From assembly GCA_950106755.1 (NCBI GenBank), contig OX467088.1, forward strand, positions 15,236,001 through 15,300,000: a stretch of DNA of 64,000 nucleotides, given 5' to 3'. This DNA is from Climacium dendroides. Taxonomy: Eukaryota; Streptophyta; Bryopsida; Hypnales; Climaciaceae. Shown piece after piece: positions 27,135-57,205 of the stretch. Made by a program: the position numbers and the translations under genes. A model generated the notes under the pieces. The model had not been told where the DNA came from and searched no databases. It was given only the letters and a program-made list of their open reading frames with translations. Numbering within the stretch: the first letter of the stretch is position 1; each line of letters opens with the position of its first letter.

Positions 27135-27231
27135 TCCCGTAATGTAGCTGGGTGTTGTTGTCGGATGTGAAACCCCATCTCGTCTAGAAATCCTGCAACA
27201 TACCACTCAACTTGGACGTTTGGGTTTATCT
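27135..27231 (-). pseudogene. Short gypsy gag piece between two insertions
   Basis: Only about 97 bp, but the minus-strand translation PNVQVEWYVAGFLDEMGF followed by HIRQQHPATLREAM is typical retrotransposon gag. It joins the 24278-25301 piece on one side and the 46791-47421 piece on the other. It is the key evidence that everything from 27232 to 46790 is one insertion. Confidence 0.85.
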
Positions 27232-27639
27232 AACACAATATTCAATATTTTGAGAGGTTTAAGGCCTCTCATAATAATATTTTCCATTTAGGCCCTAAAA
27301 AGTGAATTGTAATGTTAACTAGTTTAGGTGGGCAAACACTAACTTTGCTAGTTGTAATACACAATTTTCATTAAAATGAGAGTCTTTTTAGTGATGGACT
27401 GTTGAAATACATGAAGTTTGCTTTAGGGTATATATTCTGATTTATATAAGTGAAGAGAATGACATCTTTTGAACACCAAGTCATAAGCTCCGCGGTTGGT
27501 TGTAAGGGGTTGTTCATCTCATTGAAGCGGTCTGGGTTCGATTTCCATTGGGTTTGTATGAGCGCATGAGAGGAAAAACATGACTTGGTGCTACTAAGTG
27601 AGCTTTGCCGGCAAGAAAGTTGTAACAACTAACCAACCC

Positions 27640-28085
27640 CCTACCCAGAATGTGACAAGTGCTTTACATGTTAACCAAATAAATAATGGATATATCCACT
27701 ACATTTTTTTCTCCAATAGCAATGTAATTTCAAATAAAATATATTTAGTGATACACAAATAAGAAAATGAATTAAAAAATAGAGAAAATATAGCTCAAGA
27801 ATAAAAAATATATATATATATTAAAGACTATATTTAAATTCCATTGTTTTGTAAACCCAAAACATATACTTGAAAACAATCATGTAGTATCAAACACTAA
27901 AATAGAATCAATCAATGGAAACCTATATCCTCTAAAAAAAGCTGAAATGACTATCATCTATTATAATATTAAGGGTCCAACACTTATGCAATGAAAAACA
28001 ACTTCATATAAGATGTAGAAATAAAACAATACCCTCCATATGAATGTCATAGTTAAAATGCATCCAATGTATGTACATGATTTCT
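27640..28085. other. AT-rich left flank of the composite element, no gene
   Basis: AT-rich, with a TATATATATA run near 27810. No frame or motif recognised. It is the 3' side of the DUF7869-like gene. Confidence 0.5.
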
Positions 28086-28090
28086 CCATA

Positions 28091-30983
28091 TCATGTATAT
28101 GAAGCCAAACTCTGGTTGATGATTTCGATTTGAACTGTAGGGATCTTGATTTTGCATTGGCGAGTACCTCTTCTGTTTTGAGACTTCCATGCTGTAATTA
28201 AAGCATTTGTTGTCTCCCACGCAAGTTCTTCGGTTTCATCAACCCTCCAAAGCAAACCTCTATCACTATCCCATCCTTCATAGAAGTCTTGAACTTCTTG
28301 ATTGCGTGATGTTGGCCGAAAGTATTGAATGTGCACACAGTTTGGTTTCTCGGGGTTAGAGTTTGGATCAGACAATGCTCTGGCAATCCAAACTAGTCTG
28401 CTGTCACCGTCTGCAGGGCGAACTGCAACAAAATACCCTTCGTATACATCTCGAGCCACCCTAAAGGATGGTTGTGGACGATCCCTCAAGGGCCCAACAT
28501 AAGGCTCATCCTCTCCATGCTCTTCGAGATCTTCACCATCTTCGTCTAAATGATCAGCTTCTGTCACTTGAATACGAGTAGTTGGCCAGAAACCATCTTT
28601 TAGAGCACTAGAAGTAGGAAGTGGTTCTTGAAGAGCTGCCTTTACACCACGCCAATAGCGCATCACATTCTCATAGCGCCTACAATGTTCTCCACTCACG
28701 TCTGCTCTGCACAAGTCATCCCAATAGTTTATGAATCCTGATAAACCTTTGACAATGTCATTGACACCTTTCATTGGGTTGAATGGTACTGGCAAAAGCA
28801 CACCACGTGGCCACAGACTCCGTCCTTCATCGTCTTCTTTCCACAACTTAATGGCTTGACCGTGCCTGCCTAACCAATTTTCATCCGTGCACTTCAACTT
28901 GTATTTCATGACTGGGCATCCAACAAAGTCTAGGTAGAACTTCACTTGTTGCAGTCTTGTGTGTCCCACAAGGATTTCATCACCATCCATCCATTTTCCT
29001 GCAATGAAACGCTTGAAATCAGGCACCTCCTCTATGAGGTGAGGGATAGTAGGAATGGACTCAACATCCATGAATGACTTCATGAGCGCCGGGATTGTTG
29101 GGAAGTTCTCCTTCTTCAACAGCATGCTCCATCTTCCAAACAATGCGTCAATGTCGTCGTGTGTATGACCAACAATCATAAAGTTGACATACACTTCTCT
29201 AAAGATCTTGTTAGCAACAAGTAGAGACCAGAAACAGAAAACATATCTATTCTTGTTGTAGCCGGTGGCATTGTCCATTTGCACATTCAAAATAGGAGGC
29301 AAAGGCACTACTGGAACTGCATTCATTGGAGGTGGTGGCAGTGACGTGTCGCACATTTCTTTACCCTGCAGCACTGCCCTGAACAAATTTGAAGACCTTG
29401 ACCCAGAAAATAATTGCCAAGAAGAAGACTTCGATGGTAATTCCAGATCCCGCAACAATTTTCCATAGAACCAATTGTATAGTTTGAATCGTGTTTAAAG
29501 AGATCCAAACCATAATGTGCGTAATGCACATCTCCATGACCATGAGCAATCATGCAGTGACAGACACAAGCAATTTCACAAGGCCATCAAGCTCTTTACT
29601 CCTGTGGGAAAAGACTAGAGAAGCAGTCTTTGCATAATCCATCTTGTCGTGCATAACTGTGAGGCATTCGTGTGGAAAAGCTACTAAACGGTGATGGTTT
29701 GCATAATACAACTCCCGATAAGCTCGAGCAATCTCAACGTGCCTATCCAACTTCCGAGAATACTTCAATTCATTGTGAGACCTACTTATAGCATCCTTCT
29801 TGAGGTCTTGCAATTTGTCACACGTGCCACATCGCGCAAAATTGTCTCCAGGCTTCTTCACCTCATACTCAGGGAACTTACAATACCTAATCTTACTCAA
29901 GTTCGAAGCTGACACCTCACTCAATCCAAAAATAGCATTGACATCATTGAGTTCTTTCATCTTACCCTTCCACTGGAAGGTGGAAGGTAGAATCTTAGCC
30001 ACAACTTTCTCTCTTGACTTCAGGGTCTTCGTACGATGAGGCATGTGATCTACTTCTTTCTCCAGAATGCACTTCAATGTTGCTATAGCTTGTTGAGTGT
30101 GTTTCTTCGGTTTCACCGTTCCCTTATTGCCATGGTCCTTTGCCTCTCGACCACGCCTCATGTACAATTGGTAGCGATAGAATGTGGCCTCAAGGACCCC
30201 AGCTATATACATCCACACTCGCATACATACCGGTGTATTGTCAATTGACACCATTCGTCTACCACGCTCGTCAACATGCACCTGCCTATGCACATCCATT
30301 TTCATATAGGTCCTGTGCTTGAACGTGGAGTTGCGATACATGCGTTCACGAAAAGCTCGAATCTTATCCCTAGGAAATGGCTGAACACAGTTGCGACTAG
30401 TACAACATATTTTAGTAGACACTGCATGGATGGAATCTTGAGTAAGCAACTCCTTCAATTTCAAATTTGTTTCACGAGGCGCATTTCGGACCATACTTGT
30501 GTATGGTCTCGAAGACGTCGAAGAGGGCGGATTTAAGAGAGCCTGTTGGAGACAATTGAATTTGTCCCTAGCCTCATGGTCTCTAAGGCTAGCTCCACGA
30601 TAGTGGACAAGATGAATAGGCCAAGCCAACAATGAGCACACTTGTTCCTTTGGTAGGTCCTCTTCGCTATGTATTTTGGAGATGTGGATCGCCACGTGGG
30701 TGTCACCAAGAGGGCCATTGGCACCCAAAACGAGGTCAGAGTTCACACTATGATAGACACCTTCACCCACAAGCACTCCAGCCTCATTGTACAAGGTGAC
30801 AACTCGAGTATTCCAAAGCCGACGCGGTAGACCTTCACATTCCAGGACCCCAACATTCATTGCTTCGACATTCTGAAATTCGTCTTTTGAAGATGCCATA
30901 AAATCCTCTTCATCATGTCTGAATTCACTGGATTCAGAACCCGATGACATGTCCATGTCATTAGGGTCATCTATAGTATCCAT
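28091..30983 (-). pseudogene. DUF7869-like, putative RNase H-fold transposase-like protein
   Basis: The ATG at 30983 (MDTIDDPNDMD) follows an intron acceptor at about 30990. An acidic N-terminus is followed by a basic central region with Cys pairs (CCTSRNC, CGTCDKLQ) that could bind zinc. MHDKMDYAKT ends the first part near 29640. Two frame changes, near 29550 and 29465, interrupt the MIAHGHGDVHYAHYGLDLF stretch. The C-terminal part (to 28091) has QMDNATGYNKNRYVF and VGHTHDDIDALFGRWS. The three Asp-containing motifs in this order look like a DDE/RNase H-fold core, as I recall for DUF7869 proteins of non-seed plants and invertebrates. As the only transposase-like gene in the 27232-46790 element, it may have moved it. 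The frameshifts suggest it is dead or that small introns are missed. Confidence 0.7.
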
Positions 30984-31724
30984 GGATATCTGTAAAAATG
31001 CAATGTGAAATAGGGTAAGTGAATTGCAACATAGATCATGCAATTTCATTCATGTTCAGGTCGACCCGACCTGAATGACCAAATGTTATAGGTACATCTA
31101 TGACAGGAACAAACTTATTTTCTGAAGCCTAGGTTTCAACTACAATTGACATCATTCATTAAAATTCCTTATAAATTCAGATATATGTAAACTCTGTTTT
31201 CAGGTCGAATTGACCTGAAGTGTCTGACCCCTGTCTTGTATAATTTTTGTCAGCCGAAAATATAAATGTAAGAAGACTGAGTACAATCCTGAACTTCAGC
31301 TCGGATCGACCTGAAGTGTCCCTTGTACTCTGAGATAATGAACCCATCTTCATCTGTTCAATTCGACAGGGAATTCCCTATTTTATTCCTTTAAAAATCT
31401 CGAACTTCTCGAACTGAAGTCTGTGATGGGAGTACCCACATTTTAGGTCGAACCGATCTGAAATGAGGACTTGCAGTGAGCCGAATTCCATCTGCACACT
31501 ATTATCATTACATACAGAATTCTTTATGACTGAATCTGTGAATATCGGGAATTTCAGCAGGACATCTACGAGATTTTCACTTGAACAAAATTACAATTAT
31601 AGATACGGTTTAGGTCGACTCGATCTGAATTGCCATGTATATCATTTCATTAACATATTTGATGACAGAACTATTCAATCTACCTAGGATACGTTTTAGA
31701 TTACTTCAATTACTATCATATGGG

Positions 31725-32150
31725 TCAGTTCAGGTCGACTTGACCTGAATTGCATGAACGAATTACTAATGTAGACAATCTCACATTTAGGTCGACTCGA
31801 CCTGAGTTGCATGAACGAATGACTAATGTAGAGAATCTCACATTTAGGTCGACTCGACCTGAATTGCATGAACGAATGACTACTATAGACAATCTCACAT
31901 TCAGGTCGACTCGACCAGAGTTGCATGAATGAATGACTAATGTAGAGAACCTCACATTCAGGTCGACTCGACCTGAATTGCATGAACAAATGACTAATGT
32001 AGACAATCTCACATTCAAGTCGACTCGACTTGAATTGCATGAAAGAATGACTAATGTAGACAATCTCACATTCAGGTCGACTCGACCTAAAGTGCATTAA
32101 AATTTACTCATGTACCGTTGTTCGTATTCAGGTCGACTCGACCTAAACAG
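31725..32150. repeat. 57-bp-period tandem array carrying the palindrome
   Basis: Eight palindromes at about 31731, 31789, 31846, 31903, 31961, 32018, 32075 and 32131, mostly embedded in near-identical units (TGCATGAACGAATGACTA, ATGTAGACAATCTCACATT). It lies about 0.75 kb upstream of the DUF7869-like start. Repetitive peptides readable on both strands here are artefacts. Confidence 0.9.
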
Positions 32151-33076
32151 TTCCGGATTTCTCGGACATTGTGTTGGCAGTCTCGTAGTAACCGTGATCT
32201 CGTGTTCCGGGTTTCTTGGCGAGATAATCGGGCACTGCACTCTCAGAGTTCTGCAACTCAGATGTCGAGAACTGAACATTGAATAAAGACCTTGTCACTA
32301 AAAATTGAGGAAGCCCAGAACTCATAATCGTACAACTCGATTTTCAGTAATAAACATTGGAAACACACGCACTCTGCCAACTTCAGCAACTAGGAACTCA
32401 ACAGTAGATGGCAGTGCTGAAAGAAACATTATACACACTCAGAAAACTACTATGTGCTTACAAAGTAACTATGTCCAATCCATTGTATGAAAATGTTTGA
32501 AAATGCTAAAGGCTTCTAACCTGAGGACATACGGAAGGCAACAAGCGCGTTCACCGAGATCCTCGAAGCGCAATACTCCGACACTCTAGATAGTACAAGT
32601 ACAGAAGTTGATAGAGGCCAGTAATGACATGAGAGAAGTGAAATCTCGCATGAACGTCCATGCATTCGCGACGGAGAAGGAGAGTACCCTAATGCGCGTG
32701 GACGCAACAACATTCAAAACAATTTTGGTGGCAATGTGTAGGCGCAAATGTGAAGGCGGGAGTTGTAGGACGGAATTTGAAAATCCCGAACTCCTTCCGC
32801 AAATTCCTTTGATTTTTTATTCCCGCCTACACTGTTCATGACAGAAATAGCCACTGACAGCTATTAAGTACTTATGAGGTTGCTTTCTTGCACCGTTAAG
32901 CACTACTTTCTAGATTCTATTTGTAACAGAATCTAGGCAAGAAGTCTTCATTGTCTTTTTTTCTTTTGCAATTTCTGGAAGTCAATTTGATTTTGCTGAA
33001 GTTAGGGTCTCTTTGTAAATTTAGACAAACACAACCTTTTGCACCACCCAAGTGTTTGCATGTGATTTTATCAATA

Positions 33077-33235
33077 TTTTATCAATAAGGGTTTTATGGT
33101 TTAGGGTTTAGGGTCTTTAGGGTTTAGGGTTTAGGGTTTAGGGTTTTCAGGGTTTAGGGTCTTTAGGGTTTAGGGTCTCTAGGGTTTAGGGTCTCTAGGG
33201 TTTAGGGTCTCTAGGGTTTAGGGTCTCGGGTTCAA
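33077..33235 (+). repeat. Interstitial TTTAGGG telomere-like repeats
   Basis: A run of TTTAGGG heptamers and the derived 14-mers TTTAGGGTCTCTAGGG-like. TTTAGGG is the plant-type telomere unit, so this supports a plant origin. It lies inside the composite element, next to the satellite block, not at a chromosome end. Confidence 0.85.
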
Positions 33236-33374
33236 ATATTTTGTAGATTAATAAATCATTTCATATCATGTTTTTGAAATATTGAACAAATATTTAATTT
33301 AGAAGTGAATTCAAGGTTTTTGTACACACTAAGGAATTATACTGCATGCACTTTCAATTTCTTTTTATAATGTT

Positions 33375-34190
33375 CGCAATATTAATTTTTCCATGAATCC
33401 GAATTATTTCGTAGAGATTTGCAACTTGTGTGTTATTTTTTCGGACATGCTTCCACGTCAAACCGATACAAATTAATGGTTTGGTTTGTATTAAATACAA
33501 CATCAATCCTAAAGTATTTTTTTGGAAACTTATTTGAAAAAGTCTGGGGAAGCAATAGGGTTGTCCTAAAATTATGTTTTTCCATGAATCCTAATTATTT
33601 TGAACAATTGCAACTTGTGTGTTACGTTTTTGGACATGCTTGCACGTCAAACCGATATAATTTGTTGGTTTGGGTTCTATTAAATACAGCATGATTTTTA
33701 GAGTGTTTTTTTTAAACCCATTCCAATTGAAAAAGTGTGGAGAAGCAATAGGGTTGTCTTAAAATTAAGTTTTTCCATGAATCCTAATTATTTTGAACAT
33801 TTGCAACTTGTGTGTTACGTTTTTGGACATGCTTGCACGTCAAGCCGATATAATTTATTGGTTTGGGTTCTATTAAATACAGCATGATTTTTAGAGTATT
33901 TGTTTTGAAATCCATTTCAAATGAAAAAGACAGTGTAGGAAAGCAATAGGGTTGTCTTAAAATTAAGTTTTTCCATGAATCCTAATTATTTTGAACATTT
34001 GCAACTTGTGTGTTACGTTTTTGGACATGCTTGCACGTCAAACCGATATAATTTATTGGTTTGGGTTCTATTAAATACAGCATGATTTTTAGAGTATTTG
34101 TTTTGAAATCCATTTCAATTGAAGAAGTGTAGGAAAGCAATACGGTTCTTTTAAAATAATTTTTCCAATGAATCCTACCCAATGAATTCA
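33375..34190 (+). repeat. ~190-bp satellite, four units
   Basis: Units start with TTTTTCCATGAATCCTAATT near 33388, 33577, 33768 and 33968, with a partial one at 34163. Each contains TTGCAACTTGTGTGTTACG, GGACATGCTTGCACGTCAAA and AGAGTATTTGTTTTGAAA. The same family forms a longer array at 54355-56125, linking the composite element to the second ParB/MTase cluster. Confidence 0.9.
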
Positions 34191-34635
34191 TCCTCAAAAT
34201 TTCAGTAGAGTTTTTATGTATTAGATAAAATGCAGAGCAAGAAATGGGTTGGCGCTTGCTATGCTATCCATTCATCATTAGAATTTTATAAGAATTGTTG
34301 TGTAAAACTTTCTAATAAATCTTCAAATAAAAATCTCAAAAACTTTCTGAAGAACTTAATTCTTTTGGAATCCAAAATCACTTCAATTGAATGAATTTCT
34401 CAAAATTATTTAGTAGTAGCAATAGAAGATTGAAATCATGAAAACTCACAGCTCACAAAAGAACAAAATCATAGAAGTGCAAAGGAGTGTAAAGCCAAGA
34501 GAAGCAATGGATTTGCTACCTCTATAATATCATTCTATAGATCCTCTTTAATATCACCTTCATTTCAACAACTATATTATGTCTATAATATCACCCGGTG
34601 GAAAAAGTGGTATTACAAAAGTGATTGTTGGAGAT

Positions 34636-34836
34636 CAACTCATGGTGTACAAGTGAAAGGTCAATATAATCGTTTATCTTGTGGTTCTGATATTTTATTC
34701 CTACATGTGTTCATCTGATTTTAATTCTTGTATGATTTGAATATTGTTTGAGGAATTCTCTTCTCCGTTTTCAAATGAAATTAGACTTCTGTAACTCTCA
34801 TTTCGGTGGAATACTCTCATTTTAATGAATATTACG
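34636..34836 (+). repeat. Internal 201-bp copy of the composite element's right end
   Basis: Closely matches 46590-46790 with a constant offset of 11954 and a handful of substitutions, and stops at the same ATATTACG end, here followed by TTATGA instead of TTATCT. It is either an old internal terminus (a smaller 27232-34836 element) or a duplicated end. Confidence 0.9.
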
Positions 34837-34840
34837 TTAT

Positions 34841-37800
34841 GACTAATAGTGAGCAAAATTTGTGGTGATTGTTTTTGTGTTATTTCAAGGTAATCAATAA
34901 GAATTTGTATATAGAAGTGTTTTGATGGCTAGTCACTCCAAGGTTCATCGTGAAGAGTGCTAGGATGGTGAATAATTATAAATAAGCTAAGAATTCTACC
35001 GCCATAAAGAAATTCATATGTATAATTCAAATTATAAATGAAGTTTCCCTAAAAATTTATATTGAAATCTGTAGGAACAAGACAGTGCTCTGAAGGTCTT
35101 TGACCAAGGTTGTCAATTAAGTTTTTATATGGAATTCATAAGTGCTCTTTCAGTTTTTTTAGAATTACATCAATTATGTTACACAATAAAAAGGGGTAAT
35201 TACTATAGTCAGTACCAATTCATCTAAGGAAACTATTAGTCAATCGTTCTTATAGTATGCACTTAATGCCTAGAACAAAATTGCAACTAATAATGATCGA
35301 ATTTTTTTTGTTAAAATGGGAGGTCTCTGGCAGTAGTCAGTATACAAATGAAAGTTCATACACCTTACTAAAGCTAATGATTTAGATAGTGAAAAAAAGA
35401 ATGATTTCCAAATGAAGAAATCAGTATTTAAAGATTAAAAGGTAAAGGATTCACTTCCAATTCTCGTTAAAAAATTCAGGAATGAAAATATGTATTATAC
35501 ATAGGTTTTCATGTGAGGAAGCTTTTAGGTATCATTGGAATTGAATTTGAAGGATTGACTATCGTGGTTAAGTACAAAAATTGTTACGTTATTCAAATGA
35601 AGTTTTGTGATATTCATGTTTGTAAACAAACTTTTTAGTATTTTTGTTTCAATAAACAAACCAAATTTTGGGAAAAGGGTATCTATTATTATGTTTAGGC
35701 TACAAAAAGGGATATATCACGGTCCAAGTACTTGAGACGGGTATTGAAGATGGTCGGGTACCAAAGGCGGGTATTGAAGAAGGCCGGGTACCTAGTCCAC
35801 CGGGTATATGCCTGTAGAGTTCTGGAAACCTAGGGTTTGGTGTCCGCACATTTTCGTGCATGTCCGTTGTTTTGTCGTGCACCTCTACTGTTCCCTCGTA
35901 AATCTCCGTTGTTCTCTTGTTCTTTTGTTCTCTCGTTGTTCTGCTCTATTTTTGTGCATTCCACTGTTCTTTGGGTGCATTTTCGTTGCATCTTCATTGT
36001 TTGTGCATTTTGCACTTGCCAACAGTTGACGCGCATTTTTTTAGCACGGGTGTCGTAAAGAAGAGGACCTTGTTTTCCGCATTGATTTGTGTGTAACTTT
36101 GGAGTTCGATTCAATTGGGGGGACTTGAAGCTGTGAAGAAGCGGACCTCAAGGTGAGCGTCGTGAAGAAGCGGACCTTAGAATATTGTTTTCTGTGTGAT
36201 TTTAGAGCTCCATTCGATCGAGGGGACTTGAAGCTGCTGGGTGGTACTGTGTGTTTGTTTCTAAAGGAGGTGCAACTTGATCTCAAGGACATGTAGCTTG
36301 AAGCAGGGTTTGGGGTTTGAGGTAAAAATCTGACTCCATTCATCACTGTTGTAGGAGTGCAATGGTTCTCTTGAGGCGTGTGATCTTGTTGTTTCTTTTC
36401 TCAGTTCCTCCAAGGTCTGATAGTTTTGTGCTCAACGACGCTAGGATTTCGCGCAGTAGGAGTTTTGTTTTTGCGTTCTGAATTTTTGTTACTGTGAATT
36501 TTCACAATTGTCCAAAGGAGGCTTGATCCACGTGGGAGAGTCTTTCTTCGAGAGTTTGTGTCTAGTAAAGCGGACCATCTTCGAGAATTTGTGTTTGTGA
36601 GCCATGGCTATGGCGTCTACTGATGTGAGGAGGTTTCCAATGAAGTCCAGGTCGGTCTTGGGAGTGTTCCTGTTCTTAAGATTGGAGTCTTTGTTCCTCT
36701 TAGGGTACTGATGTGAAAGTGACACTTCTGCTTCTTTGGACACTTAGGGTTTGGGATTGGTTTTTTTGCTTTGTATTTGCTTTGTGTTGGGAATACTGTT
36801 GCATTTTCTCTGAAGTGTTGAATTCAAAATAATGGAGGAGGTACTTTCACGACATTTCATGCTTTGTATGCATAAGATGTTATTGTCTGCGTTTCTACAT
36901 TGTTGGATTTTGGATCTTGGATTGTGCTGGATTGTACACATCTCCTTTGGTCTCGATGGAATTTTAGATGCGTATGACTCTAGCTGAATCAAGTATTGTG
37001 TGAATCCTCATTGAACTTGTGTGGGGATTGTATTGTGCCAGAGCACTTTGCCAAGGTTTTGAAAAGCAAGGTTGTGTAACCTTATTCTACTTCAAAGAAT
37101 AGGTACTGGTGGATAAGCTACAACAACAACAACGAGGTTAGTATCTAGAACTTCATTATTTGTTTTTCCTTGCTCAGATATGGTTGCACAATTTATTCTA
37201 GAAAATGAGCTTTTAGAGATAAGAGTTGTGTATTCTGTTGGGAGGTATTTGCTCCCAACAGATTGGATCTTTTTTTTTAATTGTTGCAAGGAATCTGGTT
37301 GCTTGGAATATGTTTGCAGTTTGTTTCTTGGAATTTGGTTTGCAATGTAAGTTTTTTAAAATTGGTTTGTTTTTTGCATTGTAGATTGACGGTTGTAGCA
37401 CTGAAGTTACAGGATTGGGGAGTCCATAATAAGCAGCTACAGTGAAAGTAGGAGCTAAGTTGAGGCTGAAGTTGCATAGCGATTGCTTGCAGAAACTCAA
37501 GTATGTATTAATTTCAATTCTCTTGCACCATCTATGCTTTGAATAGTGATTTCTGTGATTGTTGTAAAGCTAGCTGCAATGTCCAATGAATGTGTTAGTG
37601 GGGTTTAAATTGCAGGATGTATCGTGTGCATACATGCGTTTTTAGTCTCTTGAGGTTAGTTGATTTTTGTTAGAATTCATGGTTTGGGATTTGGTAGATG
37701 GAAGCATGCTTGTTTGAGATGTTGTAGGTATGCAAAATTACTTTTTGTTTTTTTGTTTAGATTGTCTGTTGGTTTGAGATGTTGCTGTTTTTGATTTTTT

Positions 37801-38560
37801 GGCTTTTTTCAACTCCTGAATTTGTTGAAAATGTAGATAATCTTGTAGGATTTGGAGATTAATCCATCTGCATTGCATTTGAAGGTCCTCATTTTTCAAT
37901 TCCCCAAGTGAGTTTTAATGCACAAGACTTTGTTAGTTTGTTTAGGGTTTAGGGTTCAGAAATTGGCATTCATTGCTTAGGGTCCGGTGCTTAGGGTCCA
38001 GGGTTTGTTTAGGGTCCAGTGCTGAGGATCCAGGGTTTATTTGGGGTCTACTGCTTAGGGTCCAGGGATTGTTTAGGGTCCACTGCTTAAGGTCCAAGGT
38101 TTGTTTAGGGTCCAGTGCTTAGGGTCCAGGTTTTTCTTGAGGTCTAGGAATTAGAATTCAGAATCTCACAATAATAAATGACCGGCCACAACCACACAAA
38201 TTCCGTGGAATCAGCCCGGTACTACCTGGGTATCATCATCCTGTCACCCTAAATTCTTAAATGTACCGGAAATGTAAGGCATCTGAACCAAACTACAATT
38301 CAGGTCGCATCGACCTGAATTGCATAGCCCTTTCAAACATACCCTCTCTCAAATCTATGGTTTTGTCCGTGCAAGTTTATGGATAAGTTTGAGATTAGAG
38401 TAGCATACATTTCAGGTTAGTCCGACCTGAAATGTACACCTACTAGCATTGTCTGTATATAGAAAGCAACTAAACGACAAACAATTGCACTAACATCCAA
38501 GAAGAGAAATAACATCATCGTCAAAATCAAATGCCGATCAGGTCGGTCCGACCTAAACTG
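34841..38560. other. Long non-coding interval of the composite element
   Basis: No supported gene. 34841-35690 is AT-rich. 35700-37700 has a short repeated GGGTATTGAAGA/CCGGGTACC region (35740-35800), two GAAGCGGACCT-type units near 36115-36250 and T-rich intron-like sequence; it might be a captured, decayed leader or intron. 37935-38140 is a degenerate TTTAGGGTCC/CTTAGGGTCCAGGG repeat. Three TCGA palindromes occur between 38300 and 38560. Confidence 0.5.
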
Positions 38561-38565
38561 CAAAG

Positions 38566-41500
38566 AAGACGTACGAATCCTGTGCGTACGAATCCTCTGG
38601 GGAGGAAGGGGACGACTTTGACAATGACGGAGACTACTAGGAATTCAAAATTCCCGAAAAAGTTGAGAGTTGGAGTCTCTACATGATTCCATTCAAGAAC
38701 CTCATTTGTTTCGCTGCAAAGTTTAAAGACACGGACCATTTCTTCAACATATCCTTTGATGAGAAGATAAAGGACGTTGCCCACGATAGTGGTCCATTCT
38801 TGAAAATTCGGTGTGTTACAACTGTGACAGGATAGCCTGAAAGCGAGCAGTACCACTTCACTATTCGCTTGGACTCCTGAAGATGTGCCTTCAACATATC
38901 GCACTTCCTGTCAACACTGAAACTGACTAAGTACAGAACGGAGATTCCCGACCTTGAGAAGAAAGTTGACCACAACTACTTCAAGACAAAGGATGGGAAG
39001 TTGGCAACGGGGAAGGCACTATACTCTTGCTTGAAGACACTCCTGAATGACTTCACAATTTTGAAGACGAAACTTGAGTTGAAGAAGAAAGACATGACTA
39101 TCAGAACTGTCTCCCAGGAGTTTCCAAGTAACGTGGAGGGACAGAGCTCAATGGGTACACCTGGAACCCAACAGAGTTGGGGGACAAGAAAGTCCATGCA
39201 GGCCACTACTCCAGCACGAGCTCCCAGGAAAAGTAAGTTCGCATCAACCTCAGCAGCGGCAACAGCAGCGTAAGACCCTAGTGCAGTTTTACTAGGGGAG
39301 CTGAGTTTTGTATCCGCGGTAACTGAGGTTCCGGTCCCTTATGACGCCAAGAAATCGCACGATTACATTGCGTCCGCGGAGGCATACAAGGCCTACTGGA
39401 AGCACTGCACAGACGCCTACATCTTTGGCCTAGAGGATAAGAAGACAATTTCCATTGAGCAACTCATCAAGGCCCCAGAGGACTTAAACATCCGTAGCCA
39501 TGAAATGAAGCTCGCAGAGGACATGATGACATACCCCTGGGAAATGCCAGATAAGTCCACAAAACAAACATTGTGTATCATGCCAGTGGATTGCTTCGAG
39601 AAGCCAAAGCTGGAGGACTGGCCAGCAATTGAAAGGAAGAACTTCTACATCATCAATGGGCAACATAGTGTGACTGCTAGCAAAATGATGGTGGACCAAA
39701 ACCTTGACGAAGAGATTGTCAAGAAGTTTTGTCAATGGGATTGCTACGTGGTCTGGTCCATAGATGCCCAGAAACTACAGGACATATCAGCGTACTACAA
39801 TAAGGTCAACCACTTCGTGGCGCAGAAGCCGTCGTGGTCAACAAACATTCTGGGAGCGAGAAAAGTGTAGGAACTCATGGGGAGGCCACGCAATCCGAGG
39901 GAAGCGGCCCCAATAGTGACAATGTCCAACATCAGGCGAAACGCTGAGAGTACAGCAAATAAGAAGAAATTCATGGTAAGAGATTCAGGTCGAGTCGACC
40001 TGATCTGAGAATGTCGTCTGCCACCTAGTGTTCCAGCCAGCATAGGTGATGTATTGATTTACTTCATGTGATAATGAAAAAAGAGTTTGAAGTAAGTAGA
40101 ACGACAAAGGTGCATTTGACGTTAAAAATGAAATGTGTAGTTTAGGTCGGTCCGAGCTGAATAGAGAGCTCTAAATTGACCGTGACATACAAAATTGCGT
40201 TGCAGGAATTCTCATCGGCAATGTACAAGCGGTTCGCTCTGCTAGATGTACTAAAGGCCTAGAAGGCTGCAAAAGGCAAGGACGCCAAGGAGAAGCTCGA
40301 GATCCGAAACGAGCTGAAGATAATCATAGCTCCGGACGATGTGTACAACCTATGGAGCGAGGTCATTTCTAGTGCTGCGCATGGGGAGTTGATAGACCCC
40401 AATACTAGACTAAAGTACAACGAGAAGGTCACTTGGAAGCCCGAGCAAGGGAATCTGACGCATGAGTTTTTCAAAGTGCTCGGAAACCTTTCCTTCAATG
40501 ACTTGTCGAAGCTGGCCGAACATATTCTGCATCAGAATCCAGGGAGCAAGAACAAGGACTACCCAAAGGTCACAATCAAGCTTCTCTCTACTGTATAAGA
40601 GAGCTGCTATACTACTAGGGAGTGGGTGGAGAGAAGGAAGCGCAAGCACAAGGTGAAGATGGAGCTTCACGCCCTGGACGCAAGTCTCGGGCTCATGTCC
40701 TCCTTGAACGAGCTAAACCACGAGAAGTGGAGGGAGTTCAAAAGAAGTCGGAACTTCACGAGTGCCACCATGAACGTGCTGCTAGAGCAGCCAGGGAATG
40801 AATATTGGATGGAGGCGAAGCAGTCAAGAGCTAAGGAGAAGAGCGCTGAGGAGATGTCAATGTACACGGTTGAGTTCTTCCGGGTCTTCCTGCAGCAGAG
40901 AAACAATTTTGTGCCCCCAAAATCCACTGCATACTATCGTCCATATGACGTTATGTATAAGACGCACCAGGATTGGCCTAGAGGCGTGCTCACTACAGAG
41001 AACGTGAAGGACATCAAGCTTGGAGTGTGGGACCTGCGTTACACCCTGAATGTAGTATCAAAGTCTAAGTGTACACCAACCGATCCATACGTCGCTGCAA
41101 TTGTCGAGTCCTTCCAAGAAAAGAGCCAGCCCCTTCTCGAGGATATTCCGGTGTGGGTGCTCATTTGTTCCGACCTCATCGAGCAAACACAGACACTCTA
41201 CTTCATAGACAGCAATCCCGCGTTGAAGGAGTACTCCATGAGTTTCTCTAACTACATTCCCTCACCCAATGAGTGTATCGGTGACTTGTCTACACAAAGC
41301 AAGAAGGCGGTGGAACCAATTTACCTAACCATCCTGCAAAGCCTAAGCAATGCTAGGACGGTGAAAATGAGGTCTTCCTATAATGCTCCCAATATTGAAA
41401 TATTTACGAGGCCCGGGGCTTACAACGAGCTAGAGTTCAGAATTAATAATACTGAGCTACGGATGGAGTTCTTCCTCAATCTTGTGAGGAAATTCTGCGC

Positions 41501-42870
41501 TCCTAGAGCAAGCGTAATGTCATTCTTCGCTGGGTCGAAGTTCACGTGTGCTGCGATGGTAAGCCTAAACACAATGAATTCCACAATGTAATGTTTTGGC
41601 TATGGTTAAGGTCGATTCGACCTGAATAAAATGGACATGTATTTCTTCTTGAAATTATAAGGTGATAGAAATCAGGTCGGGTCAACCTGACTCGTAGCAT
41701 TGACTAGAGTGTGTTCCTCCAAAGTTTGGCTCGACCTAACCGGTGCCATTGAGTGCCCGAGAGTGAACTTCAGGTCGGGTCGACCTGACCCAACCTATTG
41801 TTGACGTTACATGAAATACCATTGTATCCTCGTTAGGGAATTTTCATACTATCGTAATCTGATAGTATGTGACGTTGTGTGTGACTTTACAGATGAGTGG
41901 GGTTAATGTGTTTGTTGTGGGGGACTCGGAGGATTCTGACCAGTGGACTGAAATTGCAACCACTGCGAAGAAACTGGATAAGAACGATTTCCTTCTAGAG
42001 GGATACTTTGTCGATGAGGGCAAATTCCCGCGCCGACCATTGGGGTCAAGCACGCCTTCGTCATCAAAGCGCAAGGGGAAGTCAACTGGAGAGGCAAGCA
42101 CGCCGTCCGATCGGAGGTCATCTACAATCATATTGTGTGAGTCCTCCGACAGCGATGGGGCAGCCGGTGATGACGACTACGACAATGACGTTCCCATGGA
42201 TCGGAGCACCCTTCTAGTGATCCGCTCTCAAAGCATCCGGGGATCATCAGCGTCGTCGGGTCAACCACCTGACACCTCTGCCATGCTGTCTCCAGCCTCC
42301 AAGGAGAAGCGGAAGAGGGGAAGATCGCAAGCCGACGACGACTATGATGCAGAAATTGCAGAGCTGAAGAGGAGGCGGGAACTGGATCAAATGATGTTTG
42401 ACAGGCAAGCCAGGGAGATGGCAGAGTTGTGACAGTTTATGGTGGCAATGTCACAAAAGAACACCTCCAAACTAGAGGCCATTATCAACAGTCTTGGTGG
42501 GGCCATGCCTCTAGCATCCGTACAGCTGTCTCAGGTTGACCAAGTGCTTTTGCTACAAAGAGCGCCAGCAAGACCAACGATGAGTGGATCCTCAAGCTTA
42601 CCCACCACTCCACGATTGATTGGGGGGCCTTTTGTCTCTCTCACTCCTCTTGCAGGTTCCGCAGATCCTCTAGCTCCTCCTCCTACTGAGGAGTGCCCCT
42701 CCACCCCTGCACCTCCACCTGATGACGAGGACATGGCTCAAGTTCCACTTGATGGTGGCAGGTCCTCAGAGACCTTGGAGTCTAGTCCGAAGATGCCCGC
42801 GGATCCTGCCATCGCCATTGATGATGATCGGAGTCATGCATTGGATGGCCAGGATGCACCATCAAGTTGA
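38566..42870 (+). pseudogene. ParB-like / DNA-methyltransferase-like protein, copy 3 (in the composite element)
   Basis: Three phase-0 exons: about 38566-39975, 40206-41558 and 41893-42870, with GTAAG donors and TGCAG/ACAG acceptors. The N-terminal region is unrecognised. A ParB-like motif YIINGQHSVTASKMM (about 39650) is followed by a helix pattern. The C-terminal half has a degenerate beta-class methyltransferase order: motif IV place VWDLRYTLN (about 41025), a strand VWVLICSD, then EFFLNLVRKFC and motif I-like SFFAGSKFTCAAM. Just after the last intron comes motif II-like NVFVVGDSEDSDQW. The tail is Ser/Asp-rich with KEKRKRGR. Eight in-frame stops (38638, 38833, 38878, 39271, 39868, 40260, 40596, 42430) without frameshift in the exons show a pseudogene damaged by substitutions. 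Both introns contain the TCGA palindromes. Confidence 0.65.
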
Positions 42871-43116
42871 CCACACAATCACTCGATGTCATTTGTATAG
42901 AATTAGCTCGACTCGAGCTGATTTGTGTCATAGGTTGTACTTAGATAGAGACCCTTAGTGTGGGAGACAATACTTTTTGATAGAAAACAATTTTTTGGCT
43001 AATCCATATCTTCATGTAAGATGATGACTTTTTTGTACTGAATTTTATTAATCAATTATACAGATTTTTCTGTAAAAATTTTAAGTCTTGTTTGTCTGGC
43101 CCTTCCTGAATTGCAG

Positions 43117-44306
43117 AACCTCCTCTGATGGCTATCTCAACTGTACCGAATGATCTTCCGAAATCTATTGCTCTTGTACAGCATGTACAATGTCCAACAT
43201 TTGGTTGTGGCATTGTAGAAGCTACAAGCGGAAGTGCACCGGAATCTGAGTCCATGCACTTAGATGATGACGTCTCTATTCCCGACGCTCAACTTCTGGA
43301 GATTGAAATGCCAGACCCTATTCGACCGACGTTGTCTTTGCCGGAAAAGGTAACCTCGTGCCCATGTGTCCTTGATCTCTGCGCTAATAGGTACCTCTGT
43401 GTTCATATATAGTCTGCGACAATTGGATTTTGCCTTTTTCCTTGAGTTTCAAAATGTGTCAGTGCAGCTTAGTAACTGGCTGCACATTTGTCCGTTTGAT
43501 AGCAGGGATCGGTTCCCCCATCTGAACGTGGAGATACGTCGAAGGATGTTGAGATTCCATTGACGTCCAGGGTGACCGTCGCCGAGAAGTGGCTGAATGT
43601 TGTCCTGGACTTAAATGGAGTCTTGTGTGTTTGTGAAGACGCCAAGTACAAGGGGTGGGCTGTGCACGTCGGGAATGCAGACCAACCGCACTCCACCATG
43701 ATTCCTGCGATTGTGGGACCAAAGGCGGTCTTTGTCCGCCCAAATTGCACTCATTTCCTTCGTGAGCTAGGATTGATAGCACACATTTCTATTTGGAGCT
43801 CAATGAAGAAGTTTACCGTTCAAAAAATTGTCGATTATCTTTTTGTCGGTCTGGATAAGCCTCGCATTATACTTGGGCAGGAGTCTTGCACGACACTCAA
43901 GTGTGAGGAACAAGGCCGGATAGTCACATTCAAAGAGCCAGGCACCACCAAGGACCTGTTCGTGAAGGACACGAACACCTTATTTAATAATTTCAATGGG
44001 CAATTTCTTCGAGAGAATACTGTCATAGTTGACGATAGTCCTATAAAGCACTTCATGAACAAGTTGGAGAACGTCGTTCTCCCCATCAGTTGGTCTCCCA
44101 AGGGTAACGGCCCTAGGGACTCATATTTGGACATGGTCCTTTTACCCTAGCTTAGGCGACTTCACATAGCTCGAGATGAAGGGTTGAAATCATTTTGCAA
44201 GAGTAGTGTGGGGAAAATTGGGTGGAAGATGTTGTATGACGAGAGAAATCGTGGCATGTACAATAGTCTTATGGATGCAGTCAGAGTGTATTCAGCGTAC
44301 CGATAG
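43117..44306 (+). pseudogene. FCP1/NIF-type HAD-like protein
   Basis: Two phase-compatible exons, 43117-43349 (MAISTVPNDLPK; acidic, Ser-rich) and 43506-44306. The second has the FCP1-homology order: VVLDLNGVLCV (motif I), HISIWSSMKK (motif II Ser), and VIVDDSPIKHFM (the DD motif). The second Asp of DxD is Asn (DLNG), so phosphatase activity is questionable. FCP1 proteins normally dephosphorylate the RNA polymerase II tail. A TAG at 44148-44150 interrupts the C-terminus (LLP*LRRLHIARDEG) and the frame then continues to TAG 44304-44306; the first could be a mutated Gln codon. It lies 250 bp after copy 3 of the ParB/MTase gene, same strand, inside the composite element. Confidence 0.75.
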
Positions 44307-44706
44307 CGCATTGCATTTCATTGTTGTTCATGAACCACGTGGATGCAGTGACTGTGTCATCGTCTAATCGGCGTTACGAAAGGGTAGTTTATTTATTGCT
44401 TTAGTTCAAGTCAAGTCGTGCTAAATGGCATGTGGATTGTTCTCTGAGTTCCTAATGAACTTCAGTTCGCCTCGACCTTAATGGCTCGTGCATTCGCATG
44501 TATGGTTAGAGATATACATAATTTCTGTAATATAATTTTTTTATGAATACCTTTCTATATTTTCTTCTTCCTCTAGTTTAGATCGGGTCGACCTCATTCG
44601 ATGGCCAGGACTTTCTAGACTGCATATTTGCTATTGGAGTTTACTTGTAAATGTAATGACAGTTACAGTTTTTGATTGAATTGTTCTAATCTCTTTGTTT
44701 TCTTAG

Positions 44707-45111
44707 AATTTGAAAACGTCGTCCTCTCTAGTTCGGCACACCAATCTTCCGTGCACTACATCAGCTGACTCTTTCTCCGACTACGGGCAGAATCTAATTC
44801 TGAGTACAGAAAACTTCATGTGTTCGGCTACCACTACAAATTCGACAATGGACTTCTCCCTAAAGCCCATTGATGATGGGGTGGTGGATAGTCCCCCGGG
44901 TTCAACTCCACATCGTCCAAAATCATGTTCTCCATCGCCCATGAAGTCTACCGATGTTTTTGCTACACCGATATCGTCCTCACCTTGCGATAGAGCAATA
45001 CAGCGGAAACTATATGGTGAGGACGTGGGTCCTTCTTCAGATGTTCAAGGAAATAGGAGGGCTTTCCAAGCTCATGAATTACAAGCAAGTACAACCACAG
45101 GCCAAAGATGA
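44707..45111 (+). CDS. Ser/Pro-rich terminal exon, unknown function
   Basis: Open from an intron-like acceptor (TTTTCTTAG at 44706) to TGA 45109-45111, giving about 134 residues rich in Ser, Thr and Pro (PKSCSPSPMKST, ATPISSSPCDRAI). No domain is recognised. Position and strand suggest a last exon of the FCP1-like transcript or of a separate cargo gene. The CACTA at 45117 inserted just past its stop codon. Confidence 0.4.
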   Translation, partial: NLKTSSSLVRHTNLPCTTSADSFSDYGQNLILSTENFMCSATTTNSTMDFSLKPIDDGVVDSPPGSTPHRPKSCSPSPMKSTDVFATPISSSPCDRAIQRKLYGEDVGPSSDVQGNRRAFQAHELQASTTTGQR

Positions 45112-45116
45112 CGAAG

Positions 45117-46340
45117 CACTAGTAGAAAAATACAGTGACCAAATTAACAAAAATCAACAGAAAAGTGTTGATTTTTTTTGTTAATTTGGACGTGTTAATT
45201 TGGGCACTTTTGAACAGAAAAGTGTTGATTTTTGAACAAAAATGTGTTGTTTAAGAACAAAAAAGTGTTGTTTAAGAACAAAAAAGTGTTGAATTTCTAA
45301 CAAAAAAGTGTTAATTTTTTTGTTAATTTGGTCACATTATTTTTTTAAATTATTATTATTTTTTAAAAATGAATAAAAGGTGACACGTGGAAATGCCACG
45401 TAGGCACCCCAAACTAGCCACGTGGCATGCCACACAAGCTACTTGAATGCCACGTGGACAGTCCAAATGCCACGTTGGCAATTCACGTGGCCAACATTGG
45501 CATCAAGGTTTGAACCTTGAACCTCATGGTTGAGGCCCAAGACTCAAACCAATGCACCACTTCAACATATACATGTTTAAAATGTATATAAAATCTTATT
45601 TGTTTAGTTTTTTATTTTTTTCTCATTGTTTTTTAAAGTCAGCGTACTTCAGGGCTGGTTTTGACTTAGTAAATGACCTTTCCTCAAGAAACTTTGAACT
45701 AATAAAAGTTGGAAAATCAAGCCAACTTTCACCTCCAACAATCCGTTTGAGATTTAGATCCTCCAATCAAAAGTTATGGACAAAAATCAGAGAGGGGTTT
45801 TAAAGATGTAAAAGAAATGATTCATTTTCACCCCTCTCTGATTTTTGTCCATAACTTTTGATTGGAGGATCGAAATCTCAAAAGGATTGTTGGAGGTGAA
45901 AGTTGGCTTGATTTTCCAACTTTTATTAGTTCAAAGTTTCTTGAAAAAAGGTCATTTATTAAGTCAAAACCGTCCCTAAAGTATGCTGACTTTAAGAAAT
46001 ACCGAATTGTTAATGTTTAGTTTTTAAAAAAATCTACATTGTACAATTAAAGATTCCAAGAGATTCCAAGAGATTCTAGGAGATTCCAAAAGATTCTAGG
46101 AGATTCTAGGAGATTCCAAAAGATTCCAAAAAGATTCCAAAAAGATTCCAAAAAGATTCCAAAAGATTTAACAAAATTTTATTGATTTTAGTTGCACTAT
46201 CCAAATCAACAAAAATAATGTGACCATTTTGTTAATTTGGGCAAAATCAACAAAAATTTGTGAAAATGGACAATACAGTACCCAAGTTAATAGAAATTTG
46301 TTGACTATTTGTTGATTTGGTCACTGATTTTCTACTAGTG
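45117..46340. mobile_element. Non-autonomous CACTA with long internal hairpin, 1224 bp
   Basis: Termini CACTAGTAGAAAA (45117) and TTTTCTACTAGTG (ends 46340) have TSD AAG (45114-45116, 46341-46343). Homology continues inward as AGTGACCAAATTAACAAA. The body holds AACAAAAAAGTGTTG repeats (45150-45320), CCACGTGG words, a long inverted repeat (listed separately) and AGATTCCAAA repeats (46046-46168). No gene. It is nested in the composite element. Confidence 0.93.
45635..45994. repeat. ~160-bp-arm inverted repeat (hairpin)
   Basis: Arms at about 45635-45798 and 45828-45994 are almost complementary, with a ~30-bp loop (ATGTAAAAGAAATGATTC). A transcript would form a long double-stranded RNA stem, the usual source of siRNA. 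Arms differ at a few bases, so it is not brand new. Confidence 0.9.
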
Positions 46341-46589
46341 AAGGCAATCGTGGAGCTCAAGAGTAAATGACACGTATAGTACTTGTTCATAGTGTAGAGT
46401 CATACATTCATGCTTCATGAAAGTTCAATGTGCATATTACAAAAGAACTTAGAGCTCGAGTGAATCACACTCGTAGCTTTTACAGTGTACACAGAACAAT
46501 GTAATGAACTACATTACTGGCCTTTATAGTTCGTTGCCTGTAATATAGTGTCACTGGACCTAGCCAAGCATAGTTGGAGATGTATGGAA

Positions 46590-46790
46590 CAACTCATGGT
46601 GTACAAGTGAAAGGTCAATATGAACGTTTACCTTGTGGTTCTGATATTTGATTCCTACTTGTGTTCATCTAATTTTAATTCTTGTATGATTTGAATATTG
46701 TTTGAGGAATTCTCTTCTCCGTTTTCAAATGAAATTAGACTTCTGTAACTCTCATTTCGGTGGAATACTCTCATTTTAATGAATATTACG
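46590..46790 (+). repeat. Right terminus of the composite element (201-bp repeat)
   Basis: Matches the internal copy at 34636-34836. It ends ATATTACG immediately before TSD TTATCT and the resumed gypsy gag. Confidence 0.88.
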
Positions 46791-47421
46791 TTATCTCCAT
46801 ATCTAGCTTTTGAATAAGAGCCTTCACCCGCTGTCCATACCTCCTTACTGATTCTGAAGGTTTCATAGTCATGACACTAAGTCATCCTAACGCTCTGGCT
46901 TCTCCACCGGATTCTCTAAACGTTCTGACGAACAAGTTTGTGAGCCGGTCCCAGTTATTTCGGGTTGCGTCCAGAACATCTTGGTACCATTTCAGCACCT
47001 CACCCTTCAATAGTCCTTGGAATATCCGCTGTTTGGCTTCAAATTCCTCTTAGTTGGCCAAAACAAGGGAGTTAAACTCACACAGCCAGTCATCTACATC
47101 CTGACTGCCGTCCCCTTTGAAACTACTATACTTTAGGCGAGTGGATCCTACCATAGTGTCACCTTTTGGTTTCGAGTGGACTGATTCTACCTCCTCCTCA
47201 GACTCGACCAAAATCTCCTGAATCTGAACTGTGACTGGCTGAGGTTCAGGAACTTCAACAATTACTTCTAACGCTTCAACTTCTGCTGGTACGGTGTCTC
47301 CAAACACAGGGTGTAATCTTGGGTTCACGTTTACGCTAGGTAGCGCATGAACAAGAACGTCTCTACGAATATTCCGGGCAGATCTTCTAGACGAAGTTCC
47401 TTCTCCTCCCTTTCTATTCAT
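46791..47421 (-). pseudogene. Gypsy gag N-terminal segment
   Basis: ATG at 47421 (MNRKGGEGTSSRRSARNI) opens about 165 bp inside the PBS. An acidic region (EILVESEEEVESVH) is followed by retrotransposon-gag text: FKGDGSQDVDDWLCEF, FEAKQRIFQGLLKGEVLKWY, LTNLFVRTFRE. In-frame stops at 47050-47052 (TAA) and 46882-46884 (TGA) are at expected Gln and Arg positions. The frame ends at the composite-element insertion and resumes at 27231. Confidence 0.9.
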
Positions 47422-54123: not shown

Positions 54124-54354
54124 CCTGCATACAATGCAGGATTAGTCAGCTACCTTTACATTCGTTGGGTCCAAATTATTTGTTTTTTCTAAAACATGTT
54201 CAAAAATTTCAGTCGTTCATGTAAATTCCACTCCATTTATTGTTGGATTCAACAACAACTACCTCAAGGAGCTTCGCAGTCCATATTTCAATGTCTCAAA
54301 ATGACCAATTTGTCTCCATTTAATGAATAAGGCCATAATAGAGTTTACTAATAA

Positions 54355-56125: not shown

Positions 56126-57205
56126 AGGGTTGCTAGCGTGCGAGCGTGCGAGCGTGAGCATGTGAGCGTGTGAGCAGGAACAAATAAACATGAATTACCT
56201 ATGACCATGGATTCATAAAATGATTGAATCACCTATGACCGTGGTTCTTTAATCTTTAGAGGGTCGTGGCTGTATATTTTTTGGTATTTGTTGTAACCCT
56301 AATAATGGTGTAGGTTTAGGTTTAGGGTGTAGGTTTAGGGATATATAAAGATTTGTTTGCTATCTATGTAGTGATGGTAATCAGTCTTCTGCAAGCTTTA
56401 TTTCTGGTTAAACCACAATTTATGTCACTGAAGCTTTGGTGTACTTGTATTGTATTTCACACTGTCTTTTTCAACAAAAATCATTTCTGTGCAATTGTTT
56501 TTTTGTTGAGGGTTTTATATTTTTTAATGGAAGTGTTGGAATAGTTGCCATTTATTTTAAATCTATATTTTTCTTTGAAAGTTTTGGTATAGTTTCTATT
56601 TTGGTAGACACCCTAGTATATAAGCTGTAGGGAGTCTGGATAGTTGTAATGTTCTTCGACATCTTTTTTTGGAAGCCCACATTTATAGTTTCAATTTTAA
56701 TATGACATCCTATTCTTGATCATTCAAAATCTACAGTACTTGTGTTTTTTTGACACCTTATATTTTGGAGAATAAGTCGTGTGCAATTGCAATTTTTTTT
56801 AAATACACTACAAAAACTTTCGATTACTTGTAATGTTATTGGACACCCTATATGGCTACAAAATGTTTAAATTAAGCACATTCATGTAGTTGGAATGTTT
56901 TTTTAAACCCAATATTCCGTAGTTTTGAAATCTTTTCAAACCATGGTCATTGTGAATGTTTATTTCTCTTATAGGCTGTGTCTCTTTCATTGAGACACTT
57001 GAAATGATGAACTACTATGTATTCCCTTGTATTGTCATTCAAAAGTGTCAAATGTAAGACACTAAGGTTAGAATTCATTTGAATGCACGACTGCATATTG
57101 TAGAGCAAAAACGGTGATATACACACATATAACCATAAAACACACAAATCCAATCATAATCAAAATCAACACATATTGTTTAAACTCATAAGATACGTCA
57201 ATCTT
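56126..57205. other. Non-coding spacer with GCGTGCGA microrepeat and telomere-like words
   Basis: GCGTGCGAGCGTGCGAGCG at about 56136 grades into GTGAGC repeats. TAGGTTTAGGTTTAGGG occurs near 56308-56340. The remainder is T-rich (TTTTGTTG, GGACACCCTA words) without a gene. It separates copy 2 and copy 1 of the ParB/MTase family. Confidence 0.55.

Follow-up and report, generated by a model that had tools for sequence, protein, structure and literature searches.

Family-specific palindromes in a ~20-kb moss DNA transposon: a candidate site set for an element-encoded dimeric DNA-binding factor

A 19.6-kb mobile element in the moss Climacium dendroides carries about 25 short palindromes, and the question it raises is which factor reads them and to what end. 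The element lies in a window of 64,000 nucleotides (assembly GCA_950106755.1, contig OX467088.1, positions 15,236,001 to 15,300,000), to which the coordinates below refer unless a locus is named. A first-pass annotation of this window had described the palindromes as TCGA-centred 17-mers confined to the element and had proposed that they form a dispersed site set for a dimeric DNA-binding protein, with a ParB-like protein encoded by the same element as a possible partner. Here, we report on the sites in the window, in further copies of the element, and in related elements of the same genome.

Results

Palindromic sites occupy a multicopy DNA transposon

A search for AGGTCGANTCGACCT with up to three mismatches returned 26 matches in the window, compared to a mean of 1.54 and a maximum of 5 in 100 shuffles. 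Twenty-five of them lie at 31058-44594, so that the reported cluster between 31.0 and 44.6 kb is real; the remaining match, at 19723, is weak (three mismatches). We compared by position seven copies of the element, which we call family F1: the window copy and six further site clusters from contig 1 (E1-E6). The common unit is TTCAGGTCG-N3-CGACCTGAA, that is, 9-bp arms around a variable 3-bp spacer, which replaces the TCGA-centred 17-mer as the better description, and departures from it are mostly C-to-T or G-to-A. For scoring, we used 26 sites, leaving out the matches at 39236 and 19723 and adding 38411 and 44405 beyond the pattern-scan list. The match at 39236, also with three mismatches, was rejected because it lies inside an open reading frame (ORF) and is at chance level.

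The element itself has well-defined borders. Homology comparison places a sharp left break at 27232, common to the window and the six further copies, and a right break at 46792, common to the five copies whose stretches reach that end (the right end of E6 falls outside the stretches compared). Among the six elements with both ends compared, five are flanked by 4-bp duplications (window ATCT, E1 GATA, E2 TAGG, E3 ATTG, E4 ACAC); E5 is without one. The DUF7869 ORF of the element, used as a genome query, gave 91 scored matches, all with at least 93% identity, among 1848 first-look candidates. On account of its shared ends, its 4-bp duplications, and these matches, the element is a DNA transposon with many copies.

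The genome (412.6 Mb, 123 contigs) has 831 exact sites, and the reversed control pattern does not occur once. Outside the element, the remaining 44 kb of the window hold no site with 15 or more of 18 arm matches. All six further F1 copies examined carry the motif. Confinement thus stands for the window, where 25 of 26 matches are inside the element, and needs to be widened from this one element to its further copies. The sole isolated F1 site examined (L001) lies inside an element remnant.

From left to right, the element comprises the DUF7869 gene (minus strand), site group A, a mid region, site group B, the ParB-like gene, a middle coding segment, a phosphatase resembling NLI-interacting factors, and a last exon (Table 1). 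Introns were inferred from open-frame breaks and splice-like junctions, i.e., from the DNA alone; several frames are interrupted in the window copy and more open in other copies. By this gene model, none of the 26 sites is coding, although coding sequence makes up 46% of the span (p 1.6e-7). The ParB-like gene region is 73% coding and holds 13 sites, again with none coding (p 3e-8). Once the ORF match at 39236 is dropped, the claim that the sites are only intronic or intergenic therefore holds within this model.

Table 1. Coordinates of the F1 element, its inferred genes, and its palindromic sites in the window.
Feature	Coordinates	Strand	Basis or remark
Whole element, family F1, 19.6 kb	27232..46792		Starts AACACAATATT, ends AATATTACGTT; breaks common to copies, aligned ends
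Left 4-bp target-site duplication, ATCT	27228..27231	+	Aligned ends
DUF7869 gene, probable transposase	28091..30983	-	PF25273, E 3e-31
Site group A, 13 palindromes	31055..32147		Directly 5' of DUF7869 gene; partly a 57-bp tandem array
Site group B, 3 palindromes (38299, 38411, 38537)	38299..38557		5' of ParB-like gene
ParB-like gene, exon 1	38585..39976	+	N-terminal domain and predicted ParB/Srx domain with NGQH motif; start approximate
Site group C, 2 palindromes (39984, 40141)	39984..40161		Inferred intron 1 (39977-40206)
ParB-like gene, exon 2	40207..41558	+	End resembles methyltransferase motif I by eye
Site group D, 4 palindromes (41606, 41671, 41720, 41769)	41606..41789		Inferred intron 2 (41559-41893)
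Middle segment, coiled-coil/proline-rich	41894..42863	+	Without Pfam family
Site E, 1 palindrome, ATTAGCTCGACTCGAGCTGAT	42902..42922		Inferred intron 3; both-arms variant common to five other covering copies
NLI-interacting-factor-like (FCP1/SCP-type) phosphatase domain	43507..44306	+	PF03031, E 2e-12; frame shortened in window copy
Site group F, 3 palindromes (44405, 44461, 44577)	44405..44597		Between phosphatase exon and last exon
Last exon	44708..45108	+	Weak conservation in relative F2, 49% over 41 amino acids
Later insertion	45117..46340		Absent from five other F1 copies covering the right end
Right 4-bp target-site duplication, ATCT	46793..46796	+	Aligned ends

This placement bears on a role in excision. 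Repeats bound by a transposase in the manner of TnpA of CACTA (En/Spm) elements would suit a DNA transposon with a 57-bp tandem array reminiscent of subterminal repeats, and the last site is 2.2 kb from the right end, or about 1.0 kb without the later insertion. Given that the first 3.8 kb carry no site and that sites spread through inferred introns, we consider this explanation highly improbable. The likeness to CACTA elements, namely repeated short motifs in a DNA transposon, goes no further: those elements have CACTA termini and 3-bp duplications, whereas here the sites are mostly internal. CACTA membership was rejected on the AAC...GTT ends and the 4-bp duplications.

Related element families carry different half-sites at corresponding places

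When TTCAGG arms were excluded from the pattern, the genome gave 7510 sites, compared to 24 in the control, and TTG/TTT arms returned 170, compared to 12. The TCGANTCGA core alone is not in excess genome-wide (with non-T outer bases, 1552 versus 1961 in the control). Five related families, F2-F6, were each studied at one locus of this one genome, F3-F6 incompletely, and the family counts are lower bounds; the F4 and F5 loci were picked from the list of 7510 sites, and F6 was reached through a third pattern.

F2 (L023-L024) adjoins copy E4 and has the same gene order as F1. It has a palindrome array 5' of its DUF7869 gene, at the place matching F1, and further palindromes 5' of and inside its ParB-like gene, with arms TTATC(A/G)TCG, TTATCGTTG, and TTATCCTCG. 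The L016 piece (8088-9614) was rejected as part of F2, being a separate element end. In F4, arms of the TTTAACTCG type are found on the 5' side of a DUF7869 fragment and of the ParB-like start; no sites were found in L028, where its ParB-like match stops near 906. In F5, the arms are TTATC(T/C)TCG, and the sites lie on the 5' side of the ParB-like gene and within two inferred introns. In F6, whose DUF7869 is 65% identical over 375 amino acids, the stretch that separates the ParB-like gene from DUF7869 carries YAGCTCG and AAGAGCTCG arms. The truncated F3 (DUF7869 64-75%) keeps TTCAGG arms; a ParB-like gene was not seen in F3, and its noncoding DNA gave no blastn alignment to the site regions of the window at E 1e-5. 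As far as they were read, the relatives keep site positions and gene layout while their arms differ, and most of them encode a ParB-like protein.

The families are almost free of each other's motifs. At 15 or more of 18 arm matches, the F1 stretches hold 22-29 TTCAGG sites each and no motif of another family, bar one TTTAAC-like match in E4; the sites of F2 and F5 are all of TTATC types, and those of F4 all TTTAAC. When each site with at least 14 matches was assigned to its best family, the window element had 23 CAGG and 1 CAGC, F3 had 5 and 1, F6 had 11 CAGC, 1 CAGG, and 2 TTATC-type, F4 had 14 TAAC, F2 had 24 TTATC-type, and F5 had 13, with shuffled means of 0-0.6. The AAGAGCTCG class of F6 was left out of both assignments. 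Six related element lineages in one genome thus have at least four half-site specificities. Two palindrome classes are interleaved at L023 3282-4365 (TTATC(A/G)TCG with TTATCGTTG), L027 4882-9735 (TTATCTTCG with TTATCCTCG), and L029 1425-2784 (YAGCTCG with AAGAGCTCG), as if there were two readers or two modes of reading.

These differences speak against a host factor. Transcription-factor sites of the host, captured and amplified by the elements as promoters or enhancers, would explain why groups A and B are at promoters, and TCGACC resembles a plant W-box variant. Such sites would hardly come in four or more distinct arms among six related elements, introns also carry sites, and the isolated site L001 belongs to an element remnant; we hold this reading to be quite unlikely.

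The first-pass annotation had noted variants in which both arms change compensatorily. Within the window copy, this is true of two sites only: 32014, where the double change is seen in this copy alone, and 42902, where the altered arms are common to the five other copies covering it. Between families, both arms differ at most sites. Since both arms have changed at about 25 sites per element, we infer one trans-acting reader. Joint change of the arms would equally be demanded by RNA hairpins in introns and leaders, or by DNA cruciforms, kept for their folding. Half-sites are uniform within a family beyond what pairing alone demands, however, and groups A and B are 5' of inferred coding starts. 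Moreover, among the first 50 distinct non-TTCAGG sites listed (all on contig 1, many of them related as copies), the arms are symmetric at position 3 in 50 sites, at position 4 in 49, at position 5 in 47, and at position 6 in just 31. A folding role thus seems very unlikely. A dispersed site set for a symmetric, presumably dimeric factor encoded by the element, as first proposed, is well supported by sites that are palindromic, noncoding by the gene model, family-specific, and found at corresponding places in relatives.

The ParB-like protein is the favoured candidate reader

The label "ParB-like" survives structurally, with a ParB/Srx CTPase fold predicted with confidence, and fails at the level of family matches: neither Pfam nor NCBIfam gave a ParB match among the proteins scanned, and no sequence match was found in PDB. 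The structure scores concern fold, not function. Exon 1 has premature stops in the window copy and is more open in other copies. The protein is 38% identical to KC19_3G000200 of Ceratodon purpureus, and a profile search matched a 1135-amino-acid protein of Physcomitrium patens, a species in which A0A7I4AG42 is an annotated homologue. In the Physcomitrium homologue P0131, a ParB-like part and a low-complexity part similar to the middle segment form a single protein; judged by eye, P0131 runs past the end of exon 2 into the low-complexity part, which agrees with a join across intron 2. Some of the gene calls made elsewhere (P0122-P0126) extend beyond the end of exon 1, and their extra C-terminal residues could be codons of intron-1 palindromes in relatives from other hosts.

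Members of the ParB fold family bind palindromes as dimers. This property, the fast divergence of the protein between lineages, and an algal proposal discussed below led us to favour the ParB-like protein as the reader. Between F1 and F2, identity is 49% over 744 amino acids for DUF7869 and about 25-28% for the ParB-like protein; F2 and F5, which have TTATC in common, encode ParB-like proteins that are 40% identical to each other, against about 25-28% to that of F1.

Another element protein might be the reader instead, whether the N-terminal part of DUF7869, the middle segment, or the phosphatase, with the ParB-fold protein in a different role. Sites 5' of the DUF7869 gene would permit self-regulation, half-site distance tracks DUF7869 identity, and the phosphatase part is also fast-diverging. 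Yet of the three proteins for which F1 and F2 were compared, DUF7869 has changed least while the motifs differ, and published precedent favours the ParB-like protein as the DNA binder. On balance, we find a different reader unlikely.

The resemblance of the ParB-like protein to ParB-parS, Noc, and KorB consists of a predicted CTPase fold and palindromic sites near its gene; differences are the lack of a Pfam ParB match, the (N/D)GQH(S/C) motif, long extra regions, and the setting in a eukaryotic transposon. A ParB-fold protein and multiple palindromes in a single element could also indicate partition or episome maintenance, with the palindromes as true parS-like centromere sites. However, the copies are integrated, with target-site duplications, the sites are dispersed and not in one cluster, and the Pfam scan of the element ORFs, which may miss short exons, found no ParA-like family. 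This possibility appears extremely improbable; sites at promoters and in introns are easier to reconcile with regulation or anti-silencing than with a parS-type role in segregation.

Several results weigh against the self-recognition system proposed below, with this protein as its reader. Where ParB proteins have their canonical arginine motif, (N/D)GQH(S/C) is found instead. In Foldseek, no match of the P0122 model reached E 0.001, the best being 8.7e-3. Model quality is poor for the segment that follows the ParB fold: the helical region after residue 430 is of low confidence and has weak matches to chains containing a helix-turn-helix. The phosphatase part diverges almost as fast (34% identity, F1 versus F2), and fast evolution therefore does not single out the ParB-like protein. 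Weaker F2 matches (L024 4888, 5050, 7252) and two further F5 matches (9536, 9715) lie inside open frames, contrary to a strict noncoding rule. Across the seven F1 copies, non-CpG positions of the sites show no conservation beyond that of other noncoding DNA, with differences of 3.0% in sites, 3.8% in the same noncoding regions, and 2.6% in other noncoding DNA. CpG loss is slightly lower in sites than elsewhere (29/341 versus 423/3335, p 0.024) and not significantly below that of neighbouring noncoding DNA (44/375, p 0.17); CHG decay in sites, at 7.6%, is not below that elsewhere (6.6-8.9%).

Discussion

In the explanation that we propose, the palindromes serve as operators through which ~20-kb DUF7869 transposons recognise their own kind, with a ParB-fold reader and with anti-silencing or activation as the outcome, a chain that, taken whole, we judge to be evenly poised between right and wrong. 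The reader would be an element-encoded symmetric dimer, most probably the ParB-fold protein, and its 9-bp half-site, made up of TCG beside the centre and about four family-specific bases, would be read twice across the 3-bp spacer. Sites would cover the promoters of both the transposase and the reader gene, plus the reader-gene introns. Once bound, the protein, perhaps loaded like ParB at parS as a nucleotide-dependent clamp, would keep the site regions active or free of silencing marks, and an active copy would thereby support copies of its own family alone. A change in specificity would entail replacement of the whole site set of a lineage, resulting in one private motif per family. We chose anti-silencing or activation of the own family as the outcome because of a layout like that of VANC and the precedent of VirB.

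Hosaka et al. (PMC5735166) describe VANC21 motifs of Arabidopsis VANDAL elements upstream of the transposase gene as well as in introns and between genes, often as tandem repeats; in the same account, a related VANC has a different motif, and the transposase is more conserved. Sasaki et al. (PMC10398659) propose escape from RNA-directed methylation as the driver of such diversification. The moss elements are alike in having a short noncoding motif within their own family, partly in tandem, other motifs in related families, and a candidate reader that diverges faster than the transposase. They differ in that the site is a 21-bp dyad, compared to a 9-bp motif arrayed in one orientation, and in that the proteins, DUF7869 and a predicted ParB fold, are unrelated to those of VANDAL; Pfam scans of the element ORFs found no DUF1985/DUF287 (VANC) domain. 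VirB, a fast-evolving ParB relative on a bacterial plasmid, is described as a cytidine triphosphate (CTP)-dependent anti-silencer (PMC10653881), and as such is a member of the ParB superfamily turned from segregation to anti-silencing. VirB counters H-NS and binds CTP, whereas for the moss protein the fold is a prediction.

Giant eukaryotic transposons with a ParB-type accessory protein have a precedent in algae. Passages of PMC12477816 describe Sola1-1_Ec32 of Ectocarpus, a 21.5-kb element with a 1104-amino-acid protein, encoded on the strand opposite the transposase, that has ParB-like and N4/N6 DNA methyltransferase domains; such ParB-methyltransferase proteins are there proposed to bind their own element, which helps the hypothesis that the ParB-like protein partners the palindromes. 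The window element is similar in its ~20-kb size, in an accessory protein of about 1000-1100 amino acids, and in strand arrangement, with DUF7869 ORFs on the minus and the ParB-like gene on the plus strand. It differs from Sola1 in its moss-type family, in lacking a recognisable methyltransferase match, and in having a phosphatase domain. The target duplication of Sola1 is 4 bp long, and 4-bp duplications were seen at five of the six elements compared here. The window adds a set of candidate binding sites, which the passages of PMC12477816 do not report.

The nearest alternative to anti-silencing is epigenetic marking, in which the ParB-like protein or a methyltransferase relative would read the palindromes to modify transposon DNA. 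The Ectocarpus relative, with its N4-cytosine/N6-adenine methyltransferase domain, is proposed to mark its own element (PMC12477816), and in the F1, Ceratodon, and Physcomitrium proteins motif I-like and IV-like C-terminal stretches occur by eye in the same order (the former at L007 5256-5358, matching the ends of P0121 and P0131). On the other hand, the ParB-like proteins scanned gave no Pfam methyltransferase match, the best PDB profile match was an arginine methyltransferase at E 1.1, which is no significant support, and the DPPY-like motif appears degenerate by eye, making methyltransferase activity doubtful. We therefore deem marking an unlikely outcome. Returning to anti-silencing, a bolder version would have a ParB-fold protein of moss giant transposons, perhaps a retired methyltransferase in which target recognition has come to serve positioning alone, load at family-private parS-like palindromes of promoters and introns, spread along the element, and keep it open, with lineages splitting by swapping half-site specificity at about 25 sites; in this full form, we find it doubtful.

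In the open-licence literature, partly aimed searches found no description of binding sites of such proteins, of family-private palindromes, or of the moss elements. According to a 2025 survey of the ParB-CTPase fold, sulfiredoxin is the representative found most often in eukaryotes; a term search of the main text of this survey did not find "transpos", "plant", or "moss" (PMC12704722). The six lineages, with at least four half-site specificities and most with their own candidate reader, form a natural series in one genome, in which swap experiments could test how a DNA-binding protein and its site set coevolve. They may represent a second, apparently unrelated case of VANC-type transposon self-recognition, and they offer candidate target sites for ParB-type transposon proteins, for which own-element binding has been suggested (PMC12477816). 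If the bolder version above is true, the system would be a parallel to VANC of independent origin that relies on the fold used by VirB, and it would provide the binding sites still missing for the algal ParB-methyltransferase proteins.

Other features of the element and the window

The DUF7869 frame is broken near 29494-29550 in the window copy, and several other copies have a 985-amino-acid stop-free open frame; DUF7869 matches a Physcomitrium patens protein (68%). For the phosphatase, PF03031 reaches E 8e-14 in another element copy. At the place where typical NIF phosphatases have DLDET, the domain reads LDLNGVL (L013 4157-4960; window 43507-44306), and the enzyme may therefore be altered in catalysis.

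The mid region between site groups A and B contains 193-bp repeats (33378-34245) and telomere-like TTTAGGG repeats (33086-33243). The 193-bp tandem repeat is also found outside the element at 54337-56178, about 20 kb away. The right-terminal 208 bp of the element (46587-46794) are repeated internally at 34633-34840, in direct orientation and with 97% identity, terminal ACGTT included. The later insertion near the right end has ends CACTAGTAGAAAAA...TTTTCTACTAGTG with AAG on each side and resembles a non-autonomous element of CACTA type that has nested within the transposon.

Outside the element, an ORF at 61239-62030 (minus strand) has a DGQHR-like motif (VCDGNHRLISW) and no Pfam match, and possibly belongs to a different mobile-element family. 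A CACTA transposase gene is present at 12109-16146 (minus strand; Transposase_21, E 3e-55), with a DUF4216 ORF close by.

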